A stretch of DNA of 35,638 nt from a virus: positions 1-35,638 of IMG/VR virus record IMGVR_UViG_3300012001_000206, one strand, 5' to 3'. The translations under genes and the position numbers were made by a program. The first letter of the stretch is position 1. Each line of letters begins with the position of its first letter. The notes beneath the pieces are model-generated. The model searched no databases and had not been told where the DNA came from. It saw nothing but the letters and a program-made list of their open reading frames with translations. Of the stretch, positions 1,132-25,779 are shown piece by piece.

Positions 1132-1949
1132 TCCGTCCCTCCCGATACCGCTCCAGGTATCGGAAGAAACGGCCGTGGCTTTATTTCAAGCTCTCTCCCG
1201 GGACTCTTTCTGCTCCCGAGCCCAGGCGTCCTTCGTCGCTTAGGGCCTTCGGCTTGTGTTTCGTCCGCCTCGATGCCGGGATTATCGCCCGGCCGATCGC
1301 CGTCGTCTCGAACGGTCGCCCCTCTTTGGTGACGACCAGCCACGTCAATGCGAGGCAATTCACTACCGCCGAGAACGTCACGAGTACCAGAAACACCGTC
1401 AGCGCCGCGTCCATGATTTAGCCATTCTTCTCGAAGGATTGAATAGATGTGGGCGTCGATCCGCCGACCGTTCTTGAAGTAGAAATCCCGCCTCGTACCT
1501 TCCCACTTGAACCCGAGTCCCTCAAACATCTTCGCTGCCGGGTTCCCGTCGAATGTCTCACCATAGATGAGATGGAATCCATGGTTCTCGAAGCCGTGGA
1601 GGAGAAGGAGAGCGAGCGCCTTTTTCCCAATCCCCCTCCGTTGGCACCCTGGCGCGATATAGAGGCTAAACTCGGCACGTGAGTTCCGGTAGTCGATCGA
1701 CGTGAATCCACAGATCCCGACGACACTTGCCTTGTCGGATCCGTCCGAAAGCTGAATCCGATACATCTTTATCGTCGGATCCGAGGCCTGGCGCTTGAAC
1801 CATGCCTCCTGGTCGAAATCAGAGATCAGGTCGTTCTGACGGGTATACTGCCAGATGGCGTAGTCGTTCCGCCAGTGCCTGATCGTCTCAGCCAAGGTCG
1901 AATCGAGGGGGCCAAGCTCAATCTTGTAGGTCTTCGCTTCTTCGGTCAT
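1113..1949 (-). CDS. GNAT-family N-acetyltransferase (PseH-like), with an out-of-frame C-terminal extension
   Basis: The start is ATG 1949, which overlaps the aminotransferase stop (ATGA) and follows GGGAG. Residues 1-175 are a complete GNAT domain. It includes the acetyl-CoA P-loop segment CQRRGIGKKAL and the typical end DAHIYSILREEW. In this setting it probably acetylates an amino group on the sugar made by the neighbouring enzymes, as PseH does in pseudaminic acid synthesis. The open frame then continues for about 100 residues of Gly/Arg/Pro-rich sequence that overlaps two other genes. One base out of phase there is a TAA at 1418-1420, only 3 bases before the next start. The natural protein therefore probably ends near 1418 and the extension reflects an indel. 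The sugar substrate is inferred from context. Confidence 0.8.
   Translation of the reverse strand: MTEEAKTYKIELGPLDSTLAETIRHWRNDYAIWQYTRQNDLISDFDQEAWFKRQASDPTIKMYRIQLSDGSDKASVVGICGFTSIDYRNSRAEFSLYIAPGCQRRGIGKKALALLLLHGFENHGFHLIYGETFDGNPAAKMFEGLGFKWEGTRRDFYFKNGRRIDAHIYSILREEWLNHGRGADGVSGTRDVLGGSELPRIDVAGRHQRGATVRDDGDRPGDNPGIEADETQAEGPKRRRTPGLGSRKSPGRELEIKPRPFLPIPGAVSGGTEWTPSS
1142..1163. repeat. 8-bp inverted repeat (hairpin)
   Basis: CCGATACC (1142-1149) and GGTATCGG (1156-1163) are perfectly complementary with a 6-base loop. The hairpin lies in the short gap between the 1181-1414 gene and the 964-1131 gene, directly upstream of the latter's ribosome-binding site. There is no T-run, so it looks like an mRNA-processing or translation-control hairpin rather than a terminator. 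Confidence 0.5.
1181..1414 (-). CDS. 77-residue membrane protein
   Basis: Residues 5-28 form a clear transmembrane helix (begins MDAALTVFLVLVTF), followed by a basic, probably cytoplasmic tail rich in Arg/Lys and Gly. An AGAAGAA-like ribosome site precedes the ATG at 1414. The gene lies wholly inside the 3' extension of the acetyltransferase reading frame but in another frame. Its protein-like composition, against the Gly/Arg/Pro-rich noise of the overlapping frame, shows that this one is the real gene. Function unknown; a holin-like role is possible. Confidence 0.6.
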   Translation of the reverse strand: MDAALTVFLVLVTFSAVVNCLALTWLVVTKEGRPFETTAIGRAIIPASRRTKHKPKALSDEGRLGSGAERVPGESLK

Positions 1950-3151
1950 TTCTGCTCCCGCATTTTCTGGGCAAACGGACTCGTGGGCATTTCCCCCAAT
2001 AGCTCGACTTCCCCGCGCTTGATCCGACCGAGGATTGCCGTCATGGCAACGAGGGCGTTTTTTGCCTCCTCGATCAGTGGGTAATTCATCCAAAAAGACG
2101 GGCCGACCAGGATCCCGGCGCGGCAGCATTCCTGGAAGAACAGTGCTCGGGTGAGTTCGTCCCCTTTGAAGGCGGAACGGGACGGATAGCCCTCAAGCCA
2201 GATCTTCTCGGGATAGACATCGTTGAAGTCCTTCAGGAACTGCTCCCCGTTGCTCCAAAGCCAGGCTGTCGAATATTCGGTTTGGAGGAGCTTCATCGTG
2301 GCGATCGCCGCGGCTAGGGACAGGGTCTCCCCGGCATAGGTGGAACTCCAAAAGTACTCGGCGCAATTCATCACGTCGTACTTGCCGGCCACGCAAGCCA
2401 GGGGCATCCCACTCGCGATGGCCTTGCCGAGGCAGATCAGGTCGGGCGTGATGCCGTAGTGAGCCGAGACGGAATACGACGGGAATCGAAAGCCTGTGAT
2501 GATCTCGTCGAAGATGAGCATTACGCCGTGCTTTGTGCAATCCTCGCGGAGTTGGCGGAGCCAGGCAATGCGGTCTACGGACGTATCGGTGATGATGGGT
2601 TCGACGATGACAGCGGCGACCGCGTTATCGATCAACCTGTCGCCAAGCTTGTAGGTGTGAAGTCCAAGAGGAACACCGATGGCGGGCTGCGACAGGCTGA
2701 CGAAACTGTCGTGGGTTCCGTGGTATCCATCGCTGTAGACTTGGGTCCGACCCGTCTTGGCTCGCGCGATCCTGATCGCCGCCGAGCAGGCATCCGACCC
2801 TGTCTTCGTCCACTTCACCGCGTCGACGAACGGGAACAGCTCCTTCAACTTCTCGGCCGCATCGATCTCGACGTGGGTCCCGAGAGAGTGCGAGGCGCCG
2901 CTGCCCATCTGGGCGATGATCGCGGCGTTGACCTTAGGGTGGGCATAGCCGACCAGGTTCGTGCCGAGCGCAGTGACAAAATCTAAATATTTCTTGCCGC
3001 TGTGGTCCCACAGGAAGCATCCCTGTCCACTCTGGACGTGCGTGGGATAGACGCCCTTGACGAGCGCCTCGGGACGCTTGGAGTTCGTTAGGTAGGACTG
3101 GGCGATGCAGTCCTGGGCTCGGCGATGGAAATGCCATTGATCGTATTTCAT
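1946..3151 (-). CDS. class III PLP aminotransferase, glutamate-1-semialdehyde aminomutase-like
   Basis: The 401-residue protein is full length for the family. It has the PLP phosphate-binding region TGSDACSAAIRIARA (about 117-131), YHGTHD (143-148), FDEIITGFRF with Asp215 for the pyridine nitrogen, and LGKAIASGMPL with Lys243 as the Schiff-base lysine. The closest named family is HemL-type glutamate-1-semialdehyde aminomutase, but phages do not make haem. The gene sits between a CMP-sugar synthetase and an acetyltransferase, so a sugar or keto-intermediate aminotransferase role is more likely. It overlaps both neighbours by 4 bases. PseC and LegC are DegT-type enzymes, so a class III enzyme here is an unusual replacement. 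Confidence 0.85.
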   Translation of the reverse strand: MKYDQWHFHRRAQDCIAQSYLTNSKRPEALVKGVYPTHVQSGQGCFLWDHSGKKYLDFVTALGTNLVGYAHPKVNAAIIAQMGSGASHSLGTHVEIDAAEKLKELFPFVDAVKWTKTGSDACSAAIRIARAKTGRTQVYSDGYHGTHDSFVSLSQPAIGVPLGLHTYKLGDRLIDNAVAAVIVEPIITDTSVDRIAWLRQLREDCTKHGVMLIFDEIITGFRFPSYSVSAHYGITPDLICLGKAIASGMPLACVAGKYDVMNCAEYFWSSTYAGETLSLAAAIATMKLLQTEYSTAWLWSNGEQFLKDFNDVYPEKIWLEGYPSRSAFKGDELTRALFFQECCRAGILVGPSFWMNYPLIEEAKNALVAMTAILGRIKRGEVELLGEMPTSPFAQKMREQK

Positions 3152-3855
3152 ACGACATGCACCAATGTTTGTCCGTAAGTCATAATCGCGTCTCGATATT
3201 TTCCAGACGCTGATTCATAGGCATCGCGCACCCTTTCTAGGTCCTCCGGCGTGTCGACGGAAAGCTTGATATGGGCCTGATCGAAGTGATTGACGACGGC
3301 GCCGAACTTGGCCCAGAGCGGCGGATCTCTACGAGCCATGGTCGTGACGTGCTCCCTATCAGAAGGACTCACGGCTCGCTCGTGAAGCTCCTTCAAAAGC
3401 CTTGCAGAGATCACCTCGCAGTCGATCCCATCGAGCGATGTGCGGAAGCGCTCGTCTACGTTGGAGATATAGTCATAGGAGTGCTGCGCTGCCAGCGAGA
3501 CAATCCTGGAAATGACATAGGGCGGGATCATGGGGCAGTCACCAGTGATCCTAACGACATAGTCGGACTCGTAACGGTCAAGAGCCATCCGATAACGCGT
3601 CAGGACATCTTGCTCAGGGCCTTCAACGATGTCGCACCGATTGCCGAAGACTTCGACGATCGGGTCACCCTCTGGCGTAAGAACAGCGACGCGGATGGAG
3701 GTTTTCTCTCGTTGAGCGGTATAAGTTGCGGCCTTCTTGCAGGCCTCGATGACGCGGTCAAGCATCGTCTTACCGCCGATCAGCTCGAACGCCTTCCTCG
3801 GTAGTCTCGTTGACCCAGAGCGGGCCTGAATTCCTATCAGGATACGCTTTTGCAC
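3148..3855 (-). CDS. SpsF-like CMP-sugar synthetase (acylneuraminate cytidylyltransferase family)
   Basis: The N-terminal IGIQARSGSTRLPRK motif is the nucleotide-binding signature of CMP-KDO, CMP-NeuAc and SpsF-type cytidylyltransferases. QDVLTRYRMA and YVVRITGDCPMI are the SpsF-type motifs further on. The family joins CTP to an acidic sugar, giving CMP-sugar. I chose GTG 3855 because GGGAGGA lies just upstream; an in-frame GTG at 3867 is the alternative. It overlaps the oxidoreductase end by about 20 bases and the aminotransferase start by 4. Together with the NeuB gene at 24829-25779 it supports a CMP-nonulosonate product. Confidence 0.8.
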   Translation of the reverse strand: MQKRILIGIQARSGSTRLPRKAFELIGGKTMLDRVIEACKKAATYTAQREKTSIRVAVLTPEGDPIVEVFGNRCDIVEGPEQDVLTRYRMALDRYESDYVVRITGDCPMIPPYVISRIVSLAAQHSYDYISNVDERFRTSLDGIDCEVISARLLKELHERAVSPSDREHVTTMARRDPPLWAKFGAVVNHFDQAHIKLSVDTPEDLERVRDAYESASGKYRDAIMTYGQTLVHVV

Positions 3856-4448
3856 TCTTCCTCCCACCGCACAACCGCCTCGTGACTCTTGACGATCCGC
3901 TCGATGTCATCCCGAGGAGACGAGAGCCAATCTCTGATCATCCAGATATAGGCGTAGTCCATCTCCTCGATCTGGAGCTTTCGACCGTTGACAGAACAAG
4001 ACCAGACGGGGCTAGTGTTCTTTAAGACCGGCCTGGTCTCGGCGTGGGAAATGATCTGAATACAATCCCAAGCGAGGCCATCGTTTCCGGACTTGAAATA
4101 GTCCCAGTGGCTATCGCCCCAACTCTCGTTGTCGACCAGGTAGTCATACTGAGAGACCATTTGGATCCTGGTTTTTGCATCCCGGCACTCCGCCATGAGG
4201 TCCCGAAGAACACTAAGGTCCTTACATATCGGCTTTTCGCAGAGGATGGGCTTCCCCATGCTCTTGCATCGACGGACGATCTCGAAGTGTGTGTCGGTCG
4301 GCGTCGCTATGATGATGGCGTCACTTTCAGATGGGTGACCGACGCTTTCTTTGATGTCTTCGCCGTGGACCTCGTGGCCAAGGCTTTGGAGGATTGCACG
4401 ATACCTTCGGCCCATTCCACCATTGATTCCGTAGATATAGACGCGCAC
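3837..4448 (-). CDS. short Gfo/Idh/MocA-family oxidoreductase
   Basis: The protein has 203 residues and starts at GTG 4448, with GAGG seven bases upstream. It has an N-terminal Rossmann fold (YIYGINGGMGRRY) and the family's GKPILCEKP motif near residues 70-80. Family members usually have about 330 residues. Here the C-terminal substrate domain is cut down to about 110 residues, ending in a Trp/Glu-rich helix. A NAD-dependent oxidation, reduction or epimerisation of the sugar intermediate is likely. Short members of this kind also occur in bacterial flagellin-glycosylation loci, from general knowledge. The reduced size may mean altered substrate binding. Confidence 0.7.
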   Translation of the reverse strand: MRVYIYGINGGMGRRYRAILQSLGHEVHGEDIKESVGHPSESDAIIIATPTDTHFEIVRRCKSMGKPILCEKPICKDLSVLRDLMAECRDAKTRIQMVSQYDYLVDNESWGDSHWDYFKSGNDGLAWDCIQIISHAETRPVLKNTSPVWSCSVNGRKLQIEEMDYAYIWMIRDWLSSPRDDIERIVKSHEAVVRWEEECKSVS

Positions 4449-5317
4449 TGCTTGACCTCGTTCAAGACGATTGGACGGAGAAGATAGTGGAGCTCGGAGT
4501 CGGTATATTGCGGGCAGGTGTCGGACCGGAGGCAGCCGTTGTGGGTCGATTCGAGGACCTCATGGATCTTCTCGATCCCGCGGTGGCCAGTGATCTCGAC
4601 CTTGTAATCGTTGATCCCAAGGATTTTCGCGATCGTCTCTGCGATTCTTAGGACCTTTGCGCCCTTCAGCGGCGGGATCATGGCGCGCTCTTTCGCGGCA
4701 GTCGCGAAGTTGGCCAGCATAAACGCCCCGGCCGCCTCGATCGTCATCCAGAAGCGCGACATGCTGACGTCGGTCACATAGATCTTCCGCTCGCTGAGAA
4801 GGCTCGCGACGAATATCGGGATCACGCTGCCACGGCTCGCCAGAATATTGCCCCAATTGAAGACGCTGAAGTTGGTCGCAGACCGGACGTTAAGCGAGAG
4901 GAGATAGTTTTGCGCGAAGGCCTTGGTATAGCCGTAAGTCGTGATCGGCAGGACGGCCTTGTCGGTATTGGAGTAGACGACGTGGTCGACACCGGCTTCC
5001 ATCGCCTCCTCGGCAACATTGACGGCACCAAGGCAGTTGGTTTTGAGAGCCTCAAGCGGGTTTCTCTCCGCAGCATCAACGTGTTTCACTGCGGCCAGGA
5101 GAAAGACCGTCTCGGCGTTGCGCATCACTGGCGCTAGCGACGCTCTATCTCGTACGTCACCCAGGACATAGTTGAACTGGGGGAATTCCTTTTTCATTTC
5201 ATGCTGTTTGAACTCGTCCCGGGAAAAGATCGTGATCGGATAGGTAGATGTCTGCGAGAGCTGCCGCGCAAGCTCACGTCCTAGCGTTCCGGTGCCACCG
5301 ATCAGGACGATGCTCAT
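4307..5317 (-). CDS. PseB/CapD-type nucleotide-sugar dehydratase (extended SDR), 3' end displaced
   Basis: The N-terminus has the NAD-binding GGTGTLG motif (7-13) and the PseB-type segment FSRDEFKQHEMKKEFP. The catalytic set is Asp119-Lys120 (TDKA) and Tyr128-xxx-Lys132 (YGYTK). The family removes water from UDP-GlcNAc to give a 4-keto-6-deoxy sugar, the first step of pseudaminic acid synthesis. A GHRGIEKIHE segment matches the family's conserved GEKIHE region. Homology-like sequence ends at LLRPIV. The frame then runs 47 more residues over the oxidoreductase gene, while one base out of phase a TGA lies at 4462, 13 bases before that gene's start. The true end is therefore probably 4462. The start overlaps the previous stop. 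Confidence 0.8.
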   Translation of the reverse strand: MSIVLIGGTGTLGRELARQLSQTSTYPITIFSRDEFKQHEMKKEFPQFNYVLGDVRDRASLAPVMRNAETVFLLAAVKHVDAAERNPLEALKTNCLGAVNVAEEAMEAGVDHVVYSNTDKAVLPITTYGYTKAFAQNYLLSLNVRSATNFSVFNWGNILASRGSVIPIFVASLLSERKIYVTDVSMSRFWMTIEAAGAFMLANFATAAKERAMIPPLKGAKVLRIAETIAKILGINDYKVEITGHRGIEKIHEVLESTHNGCLRSDTCPQYTDSELHYLLRPIVLNEVKQCASISTESMVEWAEGIVQSSKALATRSTAKTSKKASVTHLKVTPSS

Positions 5318-5529
5318 TTTCTGGGTGACCTCAGAAATAGGTTCTGGGCATCGATCACCTCGACCCTGATCACAGCCGGCCCGCGCGTAAGGTCATGCAG
5401 CAGGTCTTCGGCCGATAGCGAAAGTGTCGGTTCCCGCTTCTGTCGCTTCCTGCGGTAGAGGAGCGTCGCGAGCGCGCCGTTTCCGACAGCGGATAACAAC
5501 AGAAGTGCCGAAAGGGCGTCAAAAGCCAT
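5314..5529 (-). CDS. small membrane protein preceding the sugar genes
   Basis: The protein has 71 residues with an N-terminal transmembrane helix (about 5-24, rich in Leu and Ala), a basic stop-transfer YRRKRQKR, and a conserved-looking tail (AEDLLHDLTRGPAVIRVEVID). I recall similar tails in small proteins of other proteobacterial phages, but I know no function for them. The gene overlaps the dehydratase start by 4 bases and opens this section of the operon after a 79-base AT-rich gap. GAGA upstream is a weak ribosome site. Confidence 0.6.
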   Translation of the reverse strand: MAFDALSALLLLSAVGNGALATLLYRRKRQKREPTLSLSAEDLLHDLTRGPAVIRVEVIDAQNLFLRSPRK

Positions 5530-5608: not shown

Positions 5609-6871
5609 TTAAGACACTTTGTGAATGCTTATATAGCGCTGCGCGGCTGCCAGCGTGCGCGTCGCTCCGCCACCGACAGCCGAGTCCATTCGAATTGCCA
5701 TCGTGTCTGCGGCTGCTAGGGCCACAATCGCCTGCACTGTCGCTGTCTGGTAGGAGTTTAGATCTTTCACGCGTTCACTGCGCACGATGGACGTATAGGC
5801 AGATCCGTTTTTGAACACGTTGAACGTCACGAGGTCTAGCGTTGTGGCGTTTGCTGAATATATCCAAGACACAGTAGCCATAATCATATAGTGCCCGGCT
5901 ACAGGTGCCGTGAAGGTGTCGGATGCGAAGTTTCCGCCAATATCGAATAGCTCGGTTCCAAACGTCACAAGTGCGCCGCCGTCCGCAGTCGCATTCACAA
6001 TCGTTTGGCTGCCAGTGGCGTAGGCGTGGACGCTGGGCTGCGATGTCTGGGTCCAGACCTGACCCGTCGATACCGTCGCGGCTACCGTGTTATTCGAGAT
6101 GATGTCGAGGTTGTGGCCGGTCGTCGTGCCGATCTGGGCGTTCACAGTCCCCGATGGCGACTTGACTACGGTCGTTCGTCCGGCCGGGTCGTTGACCGTG
6201 ACCGTCGCCGCCGTGCCGTTCACGCCGGAATCCACGAGCACGTCACTGTAAAAGACGTGCTGGGCAACGCTGGCGGAGACTCCGAGCGTCCAGACGCCAG
6301 TCGCGCCGACGTTGCCCCGCGCCACTCCGTTGGTCGAGAAGCCGATGATGTTTGCACCTACGCGGTAGATGCCCGTGCCCGAGCCGTCCGAGTCGCTCGT
6401 GAAGTTCATCGATGGGGCTGCGGCCGTGCCGTCTCCGATACCGATCGACGTCTTGTTCGTTAGAACGTCTGTCGTATCCTTGCCGACTAGCGTGCAGGTC
6501 GTCAGGGGCAGGGTGATCGTCAGGGCACCGGCCATAGCCGCGTTACCGACGATCTTAGCCGTCTGGGAGTTGGCGCCGAAGTAGGCGGCACGCAGGCCCA
6601 GGGTCGCCGAGCCGATGTCAACGGCGTTCGTCGTCTTGATCGGGATCGACGATGCGAGGCTTCCCGTGAAGGTGATGTCGTCAGCCGAGGCATCGCCGAG
6701 GGTGACTGCTCCCTTAAAGTTCGCAGCCCCGTTGCAAGTCAGGGCACTGATCGTCAGATCCTTCGTCCCATCCGTGACGCCGTTCAGGATGTCGTTATAA
6801 TTTTGCATGATTTGGGAGGCGTCGGCGGTGGCGCCGTTGACGAGCGAATACGTATATGACGGGGCAGCCAT
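5609..6871 (-). CDS. tail fibre/spike protein with C-terminal C1q-like domain
   Basis: The 420-residue protein starts at ATG 6871 behind AGGAG. Residues 1-30 resemble the N-terminal virion-attachment segment of podovirus fibres. Residues 30-280 are Gly/Ala/Thr-rich beta repeats (TLGDASADDITFTGSL and similar). Residues 285-420 match a C1q/TNF-like trimeric jelly roll: FDIGGNFASDTFTAPVAGHY, then VFKNGSAY, then a LAAADTMAIRMD strand. The C-terminal domain probably forms the receptor-binding tip. It is the last large structural gene before the sugar block. Attachment to the tail is inferred from order. Confidence 0.75.
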   Translation of the reverse strand: MAAPSYTYSLVNGATADASQIMQNYNDILNGVTDGTKDLTISALTCNGAANFKGAVTLGDASADDITFTGSLASSIPIKTTNAVDIGSATLGLRAAYFGANSQTAKIVGNAAMAGALTITLPLTTCTLVGKDTTDVLTNKTSIGIGDGTAAAPSMNFTSDSDGSGTGIYRVGANIIGFSTNGVARGNVGATGVWTLGVSASVAQHVFYSDVLVDSGVNGTAATVTVNDPAGRTTVVKSPSGTVNAQIGTTTGHNLDIISNNTVAATVSTGQVWTQTSQPSVHAYATGSQTIVNATADGGALVTFGTELFDIGGNFASDTFTAPVAGHYMIMATVSWIYSANATTLDLVTFNVFKNGSAYTSIVRSERVKDLNSYQTATVQAIVALAAADTMAIRMDSAVGGGATRTLAAAQRYISIHKVS

Positions 6872-15860: not shown

Positions 15861-16211
15861 TTATCCTTGCGCGATGATTGTGTAGGAGACGCCACCGCTG
15901 ACGATGGCCGACGTGATGAACTGGACGTAGCGGTGCGGCGGGGCGTCAAGGATGGCCCAGCCACCGGACGTCGTCGTCGCGATCGTCATGGCTTGATGTT
16001 GGACGGGAGCCGTATTGACCCGCTCTAGTACCGGGTAAAAAGTGCCGCCCGTCGTGTCGCAGCCATAAACGGTGATCGCCGCTCCGGTCGACATGGTCAC
16101 GGCGTTGACGGCAATCGACCGAAAGCCGTAGGTCCCCATGTCGATGTAAGAGCTAGTCGAGGCGCCTGAAGCCGTGTTGCAGGTAAATACCTGCTTTGGT
16201 CCAGAGCTCAT
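15861..16211 (-). CDS. small structural-region protein
   Basis: The protein has 116 residues, rich in Thr, Ser, Ala and Gly and predicted all-beta (TGAAITVYGCDTTGGTFYPV, then HRYVQFITSAIVSGG). It ends YTIIAQG. The start overlaps the upstream stop by 4 bases. The pattern resembles small surface or completion proteins, and it could be an acceptor for glycosylation given its Ser/Thr content. No family recognised. Confidence 0.5.
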   Translation of the reverse strand: MSSGPKQVFTCNTASGASTSSYIDMGTYGFRSIAVNAVTMSTGAAITVYGCDTTGGTFYPVLERVNTAPVQHQAMTIATTTSGGWAILDAPPHRYVQFITSAIVSGGVSYTIIAQG

Positions 16212-16480
16212 CGGCCGTAGACCGTGAAGTAGATGTCATCACCTGTGGCAAATCCCGAGCATCCGAGGGTGCCGTTAATCGCCGTTCCGCCAGCCCCAGA
16301 GTTGATGAATACGTATCGCCCCGTTTGGCTCGCCATCGACCCATGGGTCCCGGCCGTGAACCACTCGATGACCGACAGGCCAGTTTCGACATTGAACGTC
16401 GCGGCATCGGCCGTGCACTTCAGGCCAACGGCCCGCTTGTTGCCGAAAACGGTTTGGTATCGCGTGACGGTCCAAGCCAT
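16208..16480 (-). CDS. small beta-rich structural-region protein
   Basis: The protein has 90 residues and starts at ATG 16480 behind a perfect GGAGG that overlaps the stop of the Maf-like gene. The sequence is beta-rich (GLSVIEWFTAGTHGSMASQT, then GRYVFINSGAGGTAING) and ends DDIYFTVYGR. No family is recognised. Its close coupling to the glycosyltransferase makes it a possible partner or target, which is a guess from position only. Confidence 0.5.
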   Translation of the reverse strand: MAWTVTRYQTVFGNKRAVGLKCTADAATFNVETGLSVIEWFTAGTHGSMASQTGRYVFINSGAGGTAINGTLGCSGFATGDDIYFTVYGR

Positions 16481-16489
16481 GGTGGCCTC

Positions 16490-17500
16490 CTAAAAAAGAA
16501 TTTTTTTGGTAGTCGTTAAGGGATTCTCGCACTGGTCACGCATCTCCTCGCACATGCTATACATGGCGAGAAAATCCTTGAGGTCCATCTGCTTAACCGA
16601 GCGGATATTCCCGCCGCTGTAAGCGCCCCAGGTTCCACCCTCGGTGCAATTCACCCAGAAACCAGGGATGGACTCGGCGACCCAGTCAAACCAGGCCTTG
16701 AAATTCGAGTAGGAAGGCCACGTTTTGACGCAGTTCCCGAAAACATCCGTTGTTTTCTGGTAGCTGCCGAGGTCCTTGTCGTACTTCGAGTCCCATCCGT
16801 GGAACTTCTCGAGATACGAGAAGGCGAAGTTCGCCCCCATGAGCGCAATGGGGTTACAGCCGAATATCGCCTTGGCGATATACATGCTGGCACCGAGGAC
16901 GTTGCCGCCGGTCGAGACGAACGTGTTGAACACCTCGATGGCGTCCATGTCCGCGACCAATTTCGGGTCGGGGATGGGGCAGTTGAAGAAATAGATCTCG
17001 CCCTGCCATTTCGCGAGGAGACCTGGATCTGAGGCAATGTGAGCCAGGAGCACTTTGCCTTTGGTAAGTGCCCAGTAATCCCTTTTCGCGTCCCCGCCCT
17101 CAGCCACTTCCTCGATCGTGACCGGTCCGGCATCGAGGCTGACGTAATAGTCGACCTTGACGCCGGTATCCTCGAGGAAATGGAAGTTGTGGAGGCACGA
17201 GATGACCGGAATACCGGGGTTCTTCAGGAGATCGGCCGCATTGTCTTTGAGAGAAGGACCGGAGCCGACGACGATTGCCGGAAGGTTTCTGAAACGTCCG
17301 AACAGCTTGCCGATGCCCCGATCCTTAAAAGGTCCGAGTTTTGCGTGGTTAGCCTTCGCGTTCCTCAGCCAAATATCCCGCCATAAATTGATCGTCGGTC
17401 CGTCGTTGCTTGAGGCCTTCCCGTAAAGGTCGTTCCTCGCAACGGGCGGATGCTCAATGTATGGCTGGTATTCGCAGATGATTTCTTGACGTCTAACCAC
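16490..17500 (-). CDS. DUF115/MptE-like, Maf-type glycosyltransferase
   Basis: The core PAIVVGSGPSLKDN (about 74-87 of 336) is the signature of the DUF115 (MptE-like) domain shared with Maf flagellin glycosyltransferases, and GSGPS forms the nucleotide-binding loop. Downstream come YYVSLDAG (Asp123) and a second conserved block, STGGNVLGASMYIAKAIFGC followed by NPIALMGANFAFS. Maf enzymes transfer nonulosonic acids from CMP to Ser/Thr of surface protein. The gene follows the decoration and capsid genes, as maf genes follow flagellin genes in bacteria. GTG 17500, preceded by AAGGA, is preferred over the longer frame from 17551, which overlaps the upstream gene. MptE-like pterin kinase activity is the alternative. 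Confidence 0.75.
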   Translation of the reverse strand: MVRRQEIICEYQPYIEHPPVARNDLYGKASSNDGPTINLWRDIWLRNAKANHAKLGPFKDRGIGKLFGRFRNLPAIVVGSGPSLKDNAADLLKNPGIPVISCLHNFHFLEDTGVKVDYYVSLDAGPVTIEEVAEGGDAKRDYWALTKGKVLLAHIASDPGLLAKWQGEIYFFNCPIPDPKLVADMDAIEVFNTFVSTGGNVLGASMYIAKAIFGCNPIALMGANFAFSYLEKFHGWDSKYDKDLGSYQKTTDVFGNCVKTWPSYSNFKAWFDWVAESIPGFWVNCTEGGTWGAYSGGNIRSVKQMDLKDFLAMYSMCEEMRDQCENPLTTTKKILF

Positions 17501-17513
17501 GCGATTCGAATCC

Positions 17514-17996
17514 TTATCCGTAGCAGGTGATGTAGGCCGCTCCCGAGGCACTCGACACGATCGCCGAGATGGCCTGGCCGAAGCACAGACCGTTGCCGGT
17601 CGTGTTCGAGGCGCCGTAGAAGTAGCCGTTGGCTGCGAGCTCGAGGTTCTGGCGCGCCACGACGGTTCCAGACGCGGTCATCATTTTGACCGTGCCGATG
17701 CCGCGGACAAGGACCCAGGCATAGGCCGCAGTGGCGAATGTCGCGTTCTGCACGACGCCGATGGCGAAGTCCGAGCTGGTCGCCGCCGAGACTGTGACCG
17801 AATAGCCCGTAGCCGCCGAGTTGAGTACGACCGCGCAGCCGACTGGAGCCGAAGCGCCGCCGTCGTTGTAGACGAAGACCCAGCGTTTGCCGCCCTCCTC
17901 GCAGAAGTCGCCGAGTGCCGGGTCATTCACGCCGAGCGCGGTCGTCGTGAAGGAGGTATTTGCCATCCGAACCGGTGAGATGCTTTCGTTAGCCAT
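17514..17996 (-). CDS. capsid decoration protein
   Basis: The protein has 160 residues and starts at ATG 17996 behind AAGGAGG, one of the strongest ribosome sites in the operon, which suits an abundant product. It is Ala/Gly/Ser/Thr/Val-rich and beta-dominated (SDFAIGVVQNATF, then YAWVLVRGIGTVKMM, then a small-residue tail). Placement directly after the major capsid gene fits a head decoration or cement protein. Its many Ser/Thr residues and its place right before the Maf-like gene make it a good candidate sugar acceptor. Confidence 0.65.
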   Translation of the reverse strand: MANESISPVRMANTSFTTTALGVNDPALGDFCEEGGKRWVFVYNDGGASAPVGCAVVLNSAATGYSVTVSAATSSDFAIGVVQNATFATAAYAWVLVRGIGTVKMMTASGTVVARQNLELAANGYFYGASNTTGNGLCFGQAISAIVSSASGAAYITCYG

Positions 17997-18016: not shown

Positions 18017-18940
18017 TTAGGCTGCGACGGCCGAGAATTTGCCGTGCATACGGTTGTTGTCCGAGCCGAAGATCCCCATCCAGTAGACCTTGGCGACCTT
18101 GACGTTCTGGTTGATCGGCTTCGCGAACGGCTCGAAGCGCATGTCCTCGTCCTTATGCGCGCCGAGGTGCAGGTAGCCCTCGTTGAGCATAAAGATGTGG
18201 CTCGCAGGAACCTTGGCGCCTGCGATGAATGGCGTCCCGTTGAACATCAGGCTGGAGAAGCCACCCTTGGCCGACTCCGAGTCCTGGAAGCGCTGCTGCG
18301 GCTGGAGGAGCGCATAGTAGCGGTTATAGTTCGCACGAGTCGCCATGATGACGGTCGGCTGGTCGTTGTTGATGCAGAGGTTCTGATACATCGTCTGCAA
18401 CGCGGCCATCGTCAGCGTCGTCGTCGCCGAGTCGAGCTGCGACTGCCACCACGAGTATGTCGACTGGCTGATGCCGCCGATCGTACTCGTTTGGCTCACG
18501 ATGGACCGGAGGCCGACGATCGACTTGGCGTTCGTGCCAGAGGAGTAGATGCCGTCGCCCATGATGTCGATCATGGTCTTCTCGGCAATCTGGGTCTTCT
18601 GCTTCACGAAGTTCAAGATCTGGGAATCACCAGAGTTCTTGAGTTCGTCGGAGCGAAGGATCGTGATGTTCGCGTACTCCTGCTTCCAGGAGTACTCGGC
18701 GCCCGTCATGACGTCGTTGTCGGTCGTCGAGAGCGTGTCGGCGCCCGAATACCAGCCCGCCGCCGTCGTCAGGGCGTAGTTGAGCGGGTAGATGACGGTC
18801 GTGCCGCCATCGAGCTTCTCGTACCAGCCCTTTTTCTTCGCCCGCTGCAGGATCGGGTCGGAGTCAAAGACGTTGTCGATCAACTTCGGAATGAACTTGC
18901 GCTCGGTGATTGCCGAGATCTGGTCATAGGTCAGTGCCAT
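18017..18940 (-). CDS. major capsid protein (HK97 fold)
   Basis: The protein has 307 residues. It begins ALTYDQISAITERKFIPKL followed by IDNVFDSDPILQRAKKKGW, an N-terminal arm typical of coat proteins of this class. The middle holds a dimer/insertion region (EYSWKQEYANITILRSDELK, then GDSQILNFVKQKTQIAEKTM). The C-terminal part has the HK97-like beta strand GTPFIAGAKVPASHIFMLN. Scaffold upstream and decoration protein downstream confirm the role. No protease is seen nearby, so processing is uncertain. Confidence 0.85.
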   Translation of the reverse strand: MALTYDQISAITERKFIPKLIDNVFDSDPILQRAKKKGWYEKLDGGTTVIYPLNYALTTAAGWYSGADTLSTTDNDVMTGAEYSWKQEYANITILRSDELKNSGDSQILNFVKQKTQIAEKTMIDIMGDGIYSSGTNAKSIVGLRSIVSQTSTIGGISQSTYSWWQSQLDSATTTLTMAALQTMYQNLCINNDQPTVIMATRANYNRYYALLQPQQRFQDSESAKGGFSSLMFNGTPFIAGAKVPASHIFMLNEGYLHLGAHKDEDMRFEPFAKPINQNVKVAKVYWMGIFGSDNNRMHGKFSAVAA

Positions 18941-20363: not shown

Positions 20364-20392
20364 ATCGTAATGGCGCGTTAGTTGGTGGTCAA
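20364..20392 (-). promoter_or_regulatory. possible sigma-70-type promoter for the scaffold-capsid genes
   Basis: On the leftward strand TTGACC (20387-20392) and TACGAT (20364-20369) are separated by exactly 17 bases, in an AT-rich gap of about 100 bases between the HNH gene and the gene starting at 20284. The -35 box matches 5 of 6 consensus bases and the -10 box 4 of 6. The -35 box overlaps the HNH stop. It could boost transcription of capsid genes. Untested and based on consensus only. Confidence 0.4.
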
Positions 20393-20838
20393 ACTTTATT
20401 CACTCTCCCCATGGCGCGATACTTGGCCATCCGGGCTCTGTTTCCATCCCTTGTGCACGTTCGGCAGTATCTGCCGCCGCCATTACGGACCCCGTCCAGT
20501 AGATGGCCTTTGTGGCAGCGGTCTTTCCGGGAATTTATGGCACCTTTGCCCTGTCCTCGAAGGACATTCTCGCGCTGAGTGACCGCTTCAAGATGGTTGG
20601 GATTGACGCAATGTCGGACTCGGCACAAATGATCGATGTGGAGGCCGTCGGGTATTTCTCCAACGAGCATTTGATAAACCAAACGATGGGTATAGAGCTG
20701 TTTCGCGGCCCCGTTTATTGGTGGTCCGGCACGCATACAACCATAGCCAGCGGGGGTTTTCGTCCCTTGCCAGAGCCAGCAGCCGCCAGGATGAAAGGTC
20801 ACTTTCTTCCAAATCTTGTCGATGGTCGCATTACTCAT
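20389..20838 (-). CDS. HNH homing endonuclease
   Basis: The protein has 149 residues. The HNH nuclease motif is clear: THRLVYQMLVGEIPDGLHID then HLCRVRHCVNPNHLEAVTQR, with His67/Asp69/His70, Asn79 and His82. The C-terminal part has Cys108, His112, Cys125 and Cys128, a likely zinc site and DNA-binding module. The gene sits between the portal and head genes and overlaps the portal stop by 4 bases. An AT-rich tail follows it, which is common for a recently inserted free-standing homing gene. No intron boundary is visible. Confidence 0.85.
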   Translation of the reverse strand: MSNATIDKIWKKVTFHPGGCWLWQGTKTPAGYGCMRAGPPINGAAKQLYTHRLVYQMLVGEIPDGLHIDHLCRVRHCVNPNHLEAVTQRENVLRGQGKGAINSRKDRCHKGHLLDGVRNGGGRYCRTCTRDGNRARMAKYRAMGRVNKV

Positions 20839-22769
20839 GCTGCACCAGCCGGCGCTCCGCCCTTGGCAGGAGGTTTTTGCGCCGCCTGCGCTTGTTGCTG
20901 CTGCTGCGCAGCCTGCTGCATGCGCTGCAAAACAGCTTGGTAGTTGGGATAGTCGGAGCGCTTCAATACTTCTTCGTTGTCGATGATCCCTCGGTCGAAA
21001 AAGGCGAGGAGTTTATTTTCGAGCTGGTCCTTTGCGAACGGCAGCGAGGATCCGGTTGAGACCTTGCAGTCGAATTTCGCTCGGGTCTCGAAGATTTTCC
21101 CCTGATCTGGATCAATCTGGCCGTCGGCGGTAAAGGGCTGGTAGTGGACCTTGTGGGCGGGTAGACCGTCCGCGTGCTCGTAGGACTCCACATGCATTTG
21201 GAAATACTTAGTGACGCCATCGTTGTCGGTGAGGCGGTAAATCTCGGGCGTCGTCTTGAATTGGAAAACCCGCGAGATGTATTTCGTGCCGACACCCTGA
21301 AGGAAAAAGTCGAGGTTTCGGGTCTTCTGCCGGATCCGGGTCTGGGCGGCCTCCTGCAATGTCGAGATGGCGGAGGCGGCAGTGACGCCGGTCGGCTGAA
21401 CGCCCCGGGTGATGTCCTGGGAACCGCCGATCGTGTCGAACCACTGCCCCATCTTCTCAATGATCTGCATGACATAGGGCTGAAGAGCAACGCCCTCGAC
21501 GCGTTCGGGCCTGCCCTCGGCACCGTTGTCATAGACGACCTGTAGGCCAGGGCGGTTGACCATGTTCTCTTCGTCGATCCCGGACGAGCTCGGGATGAGC
21601 CAGATGGGGTTCCCCATGAGGGTCAGCGTGTCGAGGACGAAGGAGACGAGCTTGTTGAAGGTCTTCTGCGGGCCTTCGAGCTGCTCGATCTCGGACATCC
21701 CCCAGAACTCGCGGGGGAGCGTGTAGTTCACATACCGATCGAAGGGGAACTCGGCGTCGTCGTAGCCGTTATCCGTGTCCTCGCACAGGACGCCATTGCA
21801 GTAGACAATCTTCCGGCCGTTCGGGTACTTGGCCTGCTGGATATATTCGGGGGGCGCCTCGATGCCGGTATCGGGATTGAGTTCGCCCTTCTTCTCGATC
21901 TCCTCGAAGTCCTCCTCACAGTATTCGGCCGATAGATAGACCGTGACGAGGAGCGCCTTCTCCTTGTCGACCAGGTCCATCGCGGAGGAGCCCTCGATGA
22001 TGACCTTGTTGTCGATGGGGGAGCGGTACTTCATCGGCTGGGTGTTGGTCTTCGAGCCATTGAGCAGGTCCTGGAGGTCGGCTTTGATGAAGTCTTTGAC
22101 CTCGGGGTATTTCTTCTTGATCTTCCGGACGTCCATCGGCTCGGCGTAAACGAAGCTCGGGCTCTGCTCGGAGTAGCCGAAGGTCGAGGAGTCCTTGTTG
22201 ACGTCCTTCGCCTCGGGGTCTGGGAAGCAGTAGAACGGGTCAGCGGATCCGAAAACAATCTTGGGGCGACCAAGCGAGTCCTTGACCAGCATCGAGGACA
22301 GGCCGCAGCCATAGAGGTTCGAGTCCCAGACGACTTCGAGCATCGTCTCGCCCCAGTTCCCTTTGGCCCAGTCGGCCTCGGCGACCTCGTTCATGATCTC
22401 GGCAAGCTCGGAGTCCTGCGGGTTCTGCGGCAGGTACTCGAACTTCGGCCGGGTATCGAGCTGGACGGGGATCATACTCTGGAGCGTGCGGAAGACGAGG
22501 TTGATGACCTCGGAATGCCGGTAGGAGGGGCGCTGCTCCTTCCACTGTTTCCCGCGGAACATTAAATAATAATCCATCCATTTTTGATCATATTGAGCCC
22601 TGTGTTTTTTATTTCTTTCAAATACTCGCTCTGCGAGTTTTATCGCTCGTTTCTCATCGTCTGTCGGACTGTAGGTTGCGCCGGTATCGCCGCTCTTCAG
22701 ATCGCCGCCACCTTTTGGGGCGTGCTCATCGAGGAGCCCCGGGCCTGCGTATCCGCTGATGTCAGACAT
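20835..22769 (-). CDS. portal protein
   Basis: The protein has 644 residues, in the size class of P22-like portals (about 700). It contains WMDYYLMFRGKQW and RHSEVINLVFRTLQSMIPVQ near the N-terminus, a wing/stem region, ITRGVQPTGVTAASAISTLQ and EAAQTRIRQKTRNLDFFLQG in the crown region, and a Gln/Ala-rich helical barrel-like end (AQKPPAKGGAPAGAA). The gene lies between small and large terminase genes on one side and scaffold on the other. An AT-rich patch at about 22560-22650 near its 5' end differs from the surrounding GC-rich sequence. Confidence 0.85.
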   Translation of the reverse strand: MSDISGYAGPGLLDEHAPKGGGDLKSGDTGATYSPTDDEKRAIKLAERVFERNKKHRAQYDQKWMDYYLMFRGKQWKEQRPSYRHSEVINLVFRTLQSMIPVQLDTRPKFEYLPQNPQDSELAEIMNEVAEADWAKGNWGETMLEVVWDSNLYGCGLSSMLVKDSLGRPKIVFGSADPFYCFPDPEAKDVNKDSSTFGYSEQSPSFVYAEPMDVRKIKKKYPEVKDFIKADLQDLLNGSKTNTQPMKYRSPIDNKVIIEGSSAMDLVDKEKALLVTVYLSAEYCEEDFEEIEKKGELNPDTGIEAPPEYIQQAKYPNGRKIVYCNGVLCEDTDNGYDDAEFPFDRYVNYTLPREFWGMSEIEQLEGPQKTFNKLVSFVLDTLTLMGNPIWLIPSSSGIDEENMVNRPGLQVVYDNGAEGRPERVEGVALQPYVMQIIEKMGQWFDTIGGSQDITRGVQPTGVTAASAISTLQEAAQTRIRQKTRNLDFFLQGVGTKYISRVFQFKTTPEIYRLTDNDGVTKYFQMHVESYEHADGLPAHKVHYQPFTADGQIDPDQGKIFETRAKFDCKVSTGSSLPFAKDQLENKLLAFFDRGIIDNEEVLKRSDYPNYQAVLQRMQQAAQQQQQAQAAQKPPAKGGAPAGAA

Positions 22770-23332: not shown

Positions 23333-23489
23333 CGTCCGGCTCCATCCTGACGTCTTCCCACTCCCGCACGACCTCGCCAAAGATCACGTTGGCTTTGTAG
23401 CAGACCTGGAGGATTCGCCGGCCTTGGCGGTCGACGAAGCGGATGTCGAGGATGTTCCCTAGGTCGCTCACATCTTTCACGCTGTCCAT
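23325..23489 (-). CDS. 54-residue hypothetical protein after the large terminase
   Basis: ATG 23489 overlaps the large terminase stop, and TAA 23325 overlaps the next start. The sequence is a compact beta-like fold (NILDIRFVDRQGRRILQVCY) with an acidic end (REWEDVRMEPDDG). The overlaps on both sides and ordinary amino-acid composition support it. Function unknown. Confidence 0.55.
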   Translation of the reverse strand: MDSVKDVSDLGNILDIRFVDRQGRRILQVCYKANVIFGEVVREWEDVRMEPDDG

Positions 23490-24790
23490 TTCTCCGATCC
23501 CTCCCTCGATTTGCGTTTGAGGCGCTCGAGCCGTTGATACTGGTCTTCCTGCTTCTTCTCGTCCGGGCTCTGCGGCTTTCTCTTGGTCATGCCGCGGCGT
23601 GTCATCATTGACACATACCTATTGGCGTCCATTGAGTGCTCGTTTTGCTTGACGGGAGTCTGCTCCTTTATATCTCGGTCAGGAGCTACGTCCAACTTCT
23701 CCTCGGGCCAATGGTAGCTCTCGTACTCGTCGATCGTATGCGGAGAAGTACCGCGAAAGACCTTGTAGCGCCTGGTTTTGACAAGCTCGTAGTGAACGTC
23801 GATGCCAGCCTGAATGCTGTTGTCGGCTGGGATGCAAGTCAATCCAGCCTCGTTGAAGGCCTGGATCGCCTCGGGGTATGAGGGGTCGGCGTAGAACGAC
23901 TTCACGCCAAAGATCGCCTTCGCCTGGCGTCCGACCTCAATCTTCTGGGCCATTGTTTGCGTCGTCCTATAGAACTCGAACGTCTGAAAGTGCTTGTCGT
24001 CAGGCGTGATGCCACGGACCACGAGCGCGAATGGATTCGTCCAGCCCCAGTCGATTCCCCCGTGAAAGACGGAGCCCGTCGGCAGCGTGAAGGGTTCGCA
24101 GACGTTCTCGTCGTCATCAAAGCAGTCATAGACCAAGCCCGTCATCTTTTCCCAGATGCCGCCGAACATGGCCCGGAAGCGTCTCGGATCCATGGTCAAC
24201 CTGGCATGATCGACGGAGGCTTTCGGGAAAAGCGGGTTCTCCCAGCTTGCGGCCTGAATTAGCTCCACGTCTGGGCGTGAGAAGCGGTCTTTCATGATGG
24301 GCTTGACGATGTCTTTGAATAACCAGTTGAGAGCGTAGGGGCTGGACGTTAGGTCGATAGGGCAGTCTCGAAATGCAGCTCTAGCGATGGCGTTCTCCCA
24401 GAAATATAGGGAGACTTTTCCAGCTTCATCGATCCAAATGTGACGGACATTCGTGATACCGACGATTGAGTCCGGCTCCGTCGCCGTCCGAAAGTAGCAG
24501 ATTCCCCCGCCCTTAACGCGAAAGGTGGCGTCAACCTTGTTATAGGTTCCGCAGCCATCCATGATCTTGAGGAACGCTGGAAGCGTCGACTGTTGCATGA
24601 TCTTGTAAGTTGGGGCGGCAACGACAAAGGCGTCATCTTCGGACGTGTAGGTATGCATCGCAATCTTCATGCGGACTGCGCCAACAGTTGACTTACCGAA
24701 CTGGATGCCGCTTAAGAGCGCAACGATCTTGGCCTTCGAAAAGACGGCTTGATCCTGCTTCAGAGAATGCGGAGCCCAGTCGCTAGACAT
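23477..24790 (-). CDS. terL: terminase large subunit
   Basis: From ATG 24790 (GAAGGA upstream) the 437-residue protein has Walker A LLSGIQFGKST (26-36), Walker B HIWIDEAG with Asp121-Glu122, and the RNase H-like nuclease acids GGIDWGW (Asp247), YADPSY (Asp302) and DANRY (Asp387). It pumps DNA into the head and cuts the concatemer. An in-frame GTG at 24835 would add 15 residues but overlaps the NeuB gene. A basic, charged C-terminal tail (RLERLKRKSREGSEKW) ends it. Confidence 0.9.
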   Translation of the reverse strand: MSSDWAPHSLKQDQAVFSKAKIVALLSGIQFGKSTVGAVRMKIAMHTYTSEDDAFVVAAPTYKIMQQSTLPAFLKIMDGCGTYNKVDATFRVKGGGICYFRTATEPDSIVGITNVRHIWIDEAGKVSLYFWENAIARAAFRDCPIDLTSSPYALNWLFKDIVKPIMKDRFSRPDVELIQAASWENPLFPKASVDHARLTMDPRRFRAMFGGIWEKMTGLVYDCFDDDENVCEPFTLPTGSVFHGGIDWGWTNPFALVVRGITPDDKHFQTFEFYRTTQTMAQKIEVGRQAKAIFGVKSFYADPSYPEAIQAFNEAGLTCIPADNSIQAGIDVHYELVKTRRYKVFRGTSPHTIDEYESYHWPEEKLDVAPDRDIKEQTPVKQNEHSMDANRYVSMMTRRGMTKRKPQSPDEKKQEDQYQRLERLKRKSREGSEKWTA

Positions 24791-24828
24791 CCAGGTATTT
24801 CCTTCATGTTGAAACCTCCGGAGCCCTT

Positions 24829-25779
24829 CTACCACAAGACTTTCATGATTGGATCGCCACGCTTCACGGCCTCGCGTATCGCCTTACCGTGAGCCTTCTC
24901 CCAATCGAAAGGGCTCATGCCCTTCGTGTCGTCGACAAGAGAGCGGTACGCCCCGAAGTTGACGCCGTAGACAAGCTTCTCGCCCTTCTCGATGTCCCGC
25001 GTGGCGAGCAGCCTCCGGTTGTGGCGCTTGACCATCGCGTCCTCCTCGTACGTCGGCCCTATCATCGGTTCCTTCTCGCCACGGATATGCTGGACCATGA
25101 GCTTGAACTCCCCTGGGTCGAGGCTATGCGGCCTGTCAGGCGTGTCGAGTTCGGGGTACGCGGTGAAGTGCTTCTCGAGCACCGTCGCCCCCGCCTTGAT
25201 TGCAGACAGAGGCGTCTGAATGATGTCGGTCGTATGGTCGGAGAACCCGATGCCAGCAACTTCGAGCATGTCGAGTTTCTTCATCACGCGTAGGTCGACT
25301 GTCCGGGCCGGGTAGGATGCCACGCAGTAGAGCAGCGTAGTCCTCGCAGCGGCCGACCCGAGGCAGTCCAGGGACCGTTCGATCTCGTTGTAGGTCTTCG
25401 CCCCGGTGCTGAGGAAGATCGGCTTACAGGTCTTTGCTACGGCTTGCAGGAGATGCGGATAGCAGGCGTCCGAACTCGCGATTTTATGCGTGCTGACGTA
25501 GGGGTTCACGATTTCGACAAGATCGGGGCTGAAGGCGGTGCACATGAAGTCGATGCGGCAGGAGTCAGCTTTGTCTTTGAGGGCGGGGATCCACTCGGTC
25601 CGTAGGATACCGAACATCCTAGTGCAGGACCTGTTACCGCTCCCATAGAGCGCATCATGATCGAAAGCTTGGAACTTGACCGCGTCCGCGCCGGATTCTG
25701 CCGCAGCTTCGATCGACCGCAGGCAGTGCACGAGGGTCTCCCAGTTGGATCCGACCTCGGCAATCAGGTATGGCTTCAC
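24829..25779 (-). CDS. neuB: NeuB-family nonulosonic (sialic-acid-like) synthase
   Basis: The protein has 316 residues and starts at GTG 25779, overlapping the small terminase stop (GTGA). The TIM-barrel NeuB domain starts YLIAEVGSNW and contains GADAVKFQAFDHDALY, THKIASSDACY, IFLSTGAKTYNEIE, GFSDHT and GATVLEKHFTAYPEL. The C-terminal SAF (antifreeze-like) domain is LLATRDIEKGEKLVYGVNFG followed by KAIREAVKRGDPI. The enzyme condenses phosphoenolpyruvate with an N-acylated hexose to give sialic, pseudaminic or legionaminic-type acid. It lies between the two terminase genes, 20 kb from its partner genes but in the same late operon. Confidence 0.85.
   Translation of the reverse strand: MKPYLIAEVGSNWETLVHCLRSIEAAAESGADAVKFQAFDHDALYGSGNRSCTRMFGILRTEWIPALKDKADSCRIDFMCTAFSPDLVEIVNPYVSTHKIASSDACYPHLLQAVAKTCKPIFLSTGAKTYNEIERSLDCLGSAAARTTLLYCVASYPARTVDLRVMKKLDMLEVAGIGFSDHTTDIIQTPLSAIKAGATVLEKHFTAYPELDTPDRPHSLDPGEFKLMVQHIRGEKEPMIGPTYEEDAMVKRHNRRLLATRDIEKGEKLVYGVNFGAYRSLVDDTKGMSPFDWEKAHGKAIREAVKRGDPIMKVLW

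Follow-up and report, generated by a model that had tools for sequence, protein, structure and literature searches.

Maf glycosyltransferases transfer CMP-nonulosonates, in some cases also CMP-Neu5Ac and CMP-KDO, to surface serine and threonine residues in the cytoplasm, without a sequon (PMC11339370, PMC4065374). Flagellin monomers are modified by Maf before export (PMC4065374), and the enzyme of C. botulinum takes CMP-KDO as well as CMP-Neu5Ac (PMC11339370). Besides Maf enzymes, nonulosonate pathways, phage glycosyltransferases and prophage modifiers of pseudaminic acid (PMC12053666) are already known. The Acinetobacter prophage genes epaA and epaB resemble the genes considered here in being phage genes that act on nonulosonic acid; unlike them, they modify the host capsule and need a precursor made by the host (PMC12053666). 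A phage glycosyltransferase was likewise proposed for the capsid of mycobacteriophages, e.g., Maravista, where the abstract mentions neither a Maf-type enzyme nor a sugar pathway (PMC11256854). In the open-licence literature, we found no report of a phage that has its own nonulosonate pathway and encodes a Maf-like transferase among its head genes, and no paper on a phage Maf or on virion glycosylation by nonulosonates. The locus described below probably encodes such a system, in which a CMP-nonulosonate made by the phage would be placed by a Maf-like DUF115 protein on Ser/Thr residues of a virion protein.

The window, i.e., the whole stretch of DNA analysed, is an entire IMG/VR virus record, 35,638 bases long, with its main genes on the minus strand. 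The DUF115 gene (16490–17500, minus strand), a putative Maf-like transferase gene, is an intact open reading frame of 336 amino acids with a GTG start and AAGGA upstream; a longer frame may begin at an in-frame GTG at 17551. The protein matches Pfam PF01973 (DUF115/MptE-like) with an E-value of 4e-19 and 69.5 bits (cut-off 34.6), and gave no match to NCBIfam models and no strong match to PHROGs. Its motifs, GSGPSLK, SCLHNFHFLED, LDAGP, GGNVLG, FHxWxSxYD, and NCTEGG, are kept in 49–60 of 63 distinct relatives. A cytoplasmic enzyme would fit, since no strong hydrophobic segment was found. Relatives are numerous in uncultured viral contigs, with 22 in one search and 132 stretches, 80 of which were kept, in another. 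There was no DNA or protein match in 50,697 catalogued phage records, so this collection provides no cultured model, and GTDB genomes yielded a single DUF115 fragment, in an actinomycetotal MAG. The same fold is seen in the viral protein models A0A0F7L3H2 and A0A6J5PG89, other phage proteins annotated as "MptE-like".

The AlphaFold2 model of the DUF115 protein (18 relatives as input) has a pLDDT of 89.4. The solved structure that it matches best is the Magnetospirillum Maf 5mu5 (Foldseek E 1.4e-10), with a VIA Z of 21.3 over 240 residues, compared to 14.4 over 199 residues for MptE 8sd5, 9.3 for ST8SiaIII, and 8.7 for CstII. The sequence profile of the lineage found 5mu5 as the sole convincing match (E 8.6e-4), and a broader profile, which included phage proteins of other lineages, gave E-values of 6.7e-12 for 5mu5 and 4.8e-6 for MptE. 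Similar to Maf proteins (5mu5 of Magnetospirillum and those of Campylobacter, Aeromonas, and Clostridium), the phage protein has a central PF01973 domain, the GxGPS motif, and an HxxxSxY-type motif, and by eye its FHxWxSxYD aligns with the Maf segment HHSKQSLY; it is also encoded together with CMP-nonulosonate genes and is probably cytoplasmic. However, Maf proteins are 632–666 amino acids long, whereas the phage protein consists only of the central domain and a short N-terminal part. It aligns only to residues 238–514 of 5mu5, and the two flanking domains of the three-domain Maf architecture, the N-terminal Rossmann-like and the C-terminal helical one, are absent; because they are missing, the protein is Maf-like and not a full Maf. 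A segment of 5mu5 was also used to find bacterial Maf references in plasmids, where it had no match.

The PF01973 fold is common to the phage protein and to MptE, a 6-hydroxymethylpterin diphosphokinase, and the current Pfam name together with the genuine, though weaker, fold match with 8sd5 could speak for a pterin diphosphokinase of MptE type. This is very improbable. The acidic kinase motif SDLDGD is missing; its position is occupied in the alignment by [ST]LD[ASC]G (SLDAGP and similar residues), and LD[ASC]G is present in 60 of the 63 distinct relatives. The protein extends beyond the MptE domain and, in both fold and profile, scores lower against it than against Maf. The family scans turned up no gene of a pterin pathway. 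The identity as MptE was thus rejected. The earlier note on this DNA had read the DUF115 protein as a Maf-like transferase and proposed a structure prediction against both as the check; Maf scored better, with fold, profile and motif in agreement.

By predicted structure, the next true relatives after Maf and MptE are the sialyltransferases of families GT29 and GT42. Human GT29 ST8SiaIII and bacterial GT42 CstII may share a related fold and a nucleotide-site motif with the phage protein, but the match is much weaker and the acceptor class is different. The conserved SCLHNFHFLED resembles RCNQFYFED of CstII, and hhalign aligned the N-terminal segment with CstII at 51% probability. This likeness would suit a sialyltransferase-like role, in which the sugar is moved onto a glycan or lipid carrier and not directly onto protein. 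We regard such a role as improbable: the Maf fold is by far the better match, and the window genes that were scanned include no polymerase, flippase or primary glycosyltransferase.

Unlike Maf genes, the phage gene lies in the head cluster and not with flagellin. The capsid gene (18017–18940, minus strand) encodes an HK97/SU10-like major capsid protein of 307 amino acids, matching phrog_9953 "major head protein" (E 9e-59) and the major head protein of Mx8 (tblastn E 5e-31). The adjoining gene (17514–17996, minus strand) encodes a 160-amino acid protein with no sequence-family match, for which an AlphaFold2 model (32 relatives, pLDDT 83) matches the decoration or stabilising proteins of HFTV1 (Z 12.2), FCWL1/T1, Sf11, Pam3, XM1, and TW1 (Z 9.3–12.2), as well as the base of the phi29 head fibre. 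Its profile weakly matches Mx8 p49, a "major virion structural protein" whose gene sits right after the Mx8 capsid gene. Judged by the predicted fold and by its gene adjoining the capsid gene, this product is a capsid decoration protein. The DUF115 gene is directly followed by a gene for a 90-amino acid protein (16208–16480, minus strand), and a 116-amino acid protein (15861–16211, minus strand) that matches phrog_5707, with no assigned function (E 6e-4), is often next in order. The portal protein is encoded at 20835–22769 (phrog_156, E 3e-48) and the terminase large subunit at 23477–24835 (phrog_2, E 1e-37), both on the minus strand; by eye, an HNH endonuclease-like protein is encoded at 20389–20838, with the portal gene on one side and the scaffold region on the other. 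The decoration label given in the earlier note is borne out by the predicted-structure matches, and so is its placement of the PF01973 gene after the decoration and capsid genes: the gene calls are correct and the order is capsid, decoration, DUF115.

To avoid selection, loci for the analysis of synteny were sampled by similarity of the capsid protein and not by DUF115. Among the 80 loci, the DUF115 gene lies 495–797 bases after the capsid gene, one gene away, in all 78 that could be tested. Gene order was annotated in 31 longer contigs; wherever the position was visible, the decoration gene is directly upstream of DUF115 (30 of 30 contigs) and the gene for the 90-amino acid protein directly downstream (29 of 30). 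The placement of DUF115 in the head cluster is more than chance. The link to flagellin or motility genes that is typical of Maf was not found; capsid and decoration genes are linked to DUF115 in all testable loci. In the annotated gene order of the distant capsid relatives Mx8, BUCT555, Ruegeria 45A6, and Manatee Spring phages, there is no DUF115, which is why it appears to be a feature of the lineage.

The donor sugar may be made by genes on both sides of the late cluster. A NeuB-family (nonulosonate) synthase is encoded directly upstream of the terminase gene (24829–25779, minus strand; PF03102, E 2.5e-50); it matches TIGR03569 (E 8e-51) and TIGR03586 PseI (E 8e-45), both below cut-off, and keeps the catalytic-type motifs AExGxN, KFQ, SDH, and EKH in an alignment with PDB sequences. 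The remaining genes, all on the minus strand as well, lie at the other side. A PseB-like UDP-GlcNAc 4,6-dehydratase (4307–5317; PF02719, E 4e-65) matches TIGR03589 PseB (E 8.5e-58, below its cut-off) and 2gn4 (E 5e-44), with the TDKA and YGxTK motifs kept. A CMP-sugar cytidylyltransferase of the KdsB/NeuA/SpsF type (3148–3867; PF02348, E 8e-23) matches KdsB models and the cytidylyltransferase 6oew (E 9e-20), and looks as much like KdsB as NeuA. A PLP-dependent aminotransferase of class III (1946–3151; PF00202, E 1e-46) matches GSAM 6w80 (E 5e-42) with the lysine aligned; the PseC aminotransferase is of the DegT type and not class III. A PseH-like GNAT acetyltransferase (1113–2129, with the true start probably near 1950) matches TIGR03585 PseH (E 6.5e-14, below its cut-off), and the operon also contains a fragment of a Gfo/Idh/MocA-type oxidoreductase (3837–4448; PF01408, E 6e-12). 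NCBIfam equivalog cut-offs were not reached for PseB, PseI, NeuB or PseH. Just upstream of the PseB-like gene lies a 71-amino acid open reading frame (5314–5529) with a position conserved in most relatives, and a putative fibre protein with a C-terminal C1q-like domain (5609–6871) is conserved across relatives beside the sugar operon. In comparison with the bacterial Pse and Leg pathways and sps of B. subtilis, the phage has the same dehydratase, aminotransferase, acetyltransferase, NeuB, and cytidylyltransferase, but its pathway is split across both sides of the late cluster, its aminotransferase is of class III, and a PseG/SpsG-type UDP-sugar hydrolase (PF04101) was absent from the 16 contigs searched. 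Taken together, the five enzymes suggest a CMP-nonulosonate pathway.

Co-occurrence was analysed in the 16 contigs of at least 33 kb with this DUF115, the window included. NeuB is present in 15 of them and the cytidylyltransferase also in 15, and 24 of 25 contigs carry NeuB next to, and ahead of, the gene for the terminase. In one contig, G002 (L030, L031), DUF115 is kept while NeuB, PseB, and the cytidylyltransferase are lost and only a divergent aminotransferase is left; this contig offers a natural test for a possible use of host sugar by DUF115. A tblastn search with the NeuB of the window matched 3 of the 50,697 catalogued phages, a count in which divergent NeuB proteins may be underrepresented. 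Among the best 80 viral contigs of a search anchored on NeuB, about half belong to this lineage and the rest to other phages or islands. PF01973 was found in 11 of 37 contigs of such other phages or islands with NeuB, four of them over the Pfam cut-off, and in three the gene lies inside a structural cluster. Two of these, G098 (L345; 7376–9860) and G099 (L346; 4781–8400), with Mx8-like heads, have two to three PF01973 copies between capsid and adaptor, one copy being located just before a small protein with 21–22% Ser+Thr. The third, G096 (L347; 2772–3791), of unrelated architecture with NeuB, has PF01973 between the virion-morphogenesis (PF05069) and tail-tube (PF18906) genes. In the further phage lineage G078 (L348; 4889–11010), NeuB, a PseB-like protein, a class III aminotransferase, and a cytidylyltransferase directly follow the adaptor, with PF01973 absent; a 424-amino acid DUF354-like protein of this contig may belong to the sugar gene set.

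If we consider how Maf enzymes and prophages act, then the target could also be the host, with flagellin, LPS or capsule modified for superinfection exclusion or lysogenic conversion. Flagellin is the known acceptor of Maf, prophages alter host pseudaminic acid in the capsule (PMC12053666), and some of these phages may be temperate, given a tyrosine integrase in 5 of the 16 long contigs. However, the other 11 contigs have no tyrosine integrase, DUF115 is fixed in the head cluster, and NeuB lies beside the terminase gene. Conversion genes are usually located outside the late operon. As other lineages have independently placed PF01973 within clusters of head or tail genes, modification of the host is unlikely.

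The invariant synteny and the co-inherited sugar-nucleotide pathway, which the earlier note had not noticed, strongly suggest that the acceptor is a virion protein. In this respect the proposal of the earlier note, a head protein as the acceptor, stands, while the specific protein is not singled out. The leading candidate, judged by its position and its location on the surface, is the decoration protein, perhaps with somewhat less than an even chance, and the 90-amino acid protein comes second. Both are invariant neighbours of DUF115, so they are not separated as acceptors. The distance correlations with DUF115 do not separate them either and indicate no specific acceptor (partial r of 0.28 for decoration, 0.30 for the 90-amino acid protein, 0.37 for portal, and 0.38 for NeuB). 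The description of the decoration protein as Ser/Thr-rich lends little support to it as the acceptor: its Ser+Thr content is 18.8%, compared to 16.6% for the capsid protein and, for the small downstream proteins, 20.0% (encoded at 16208–16480) and 25.0% (at 15861–16211), the latter being a further possible acceptor. The same enzyme and sugar might also serve a tail or fibre protein. In most contigs the sugar operon follows closely downstream on the gene for the C1q-domain fibre protein, that fibre protein contains 22.9% Ser+Thr, and the DUF115 gene of G096 adjoins the tail-tube gene; yet in all testable cases but one DUF115 lies between the decoration gene and the gene for the 90-amino acid protein, and not with the fibre gene. 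A tail or fibre acceptor is therefore rather doubtful.

For glycosylation of the virion, the observations comprise gene content, fold, motifs, synteny, and co-occurrence, and we infer CMP-nonulosonate as the donor, a virion protein as the acceptor, and an O-glycosidic link. As the simplest reading, it is proposed that the PseB-like dehydratase, the aminotransferase, the PseH-like acetyltransferase, NeuB, and the cytidylyltransferase would produce a CMP-activated, sialic-acid-like (nonulosonic) sugar, with the PseG-type hydrolase step supplied by the host or by an unrecognised gene. DUF115, as a reduced Maf-type enzyme, would then O-link the sugar to Ser/Thr residues of the virion protein in the cytoplasm late in infection, before or during head assembly. 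The likeliest target would be a protein of the head surface, either decoration or the small protein whose gene comes right after DUF115. The proposed modification ahead of or during assembly parallels the cytoplasmic modification of flagellin by Maf ahead of export. Against virion glycosylation stand the absence of a PseG-like hydrolase from the 16 contigs searched, the class III aminotransferase, and the NCBIfam scores below cut-off, as well as the pathway loss in G002, the missing flanking domains of Maf, and the non-specific distance correlations.

The chances are about equal for and against a widespread, unrecognised phage strategy, in which a CMP-nonulosonate pathway and a reduced Maf-like transferase of the head cluster lead to a sialic-acid-like decoration of the virion. 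Evenly balanced, too, is the view that this strategy is near-universal in the lineage and recurs in G096, G098, and G099, and possibly in G078 with another transferase. If true, phages would coat their own particles with sialic-acid-like sugars by means of a stripped-down flagellin glycosyltransferase. This would provide a function for PF01973 "MptE-like" proteins, routinely misnamed in phage genomes, explain the NeuB genes of phages, and offer a compact protein-nonulosonate transferase for glycoengineering.
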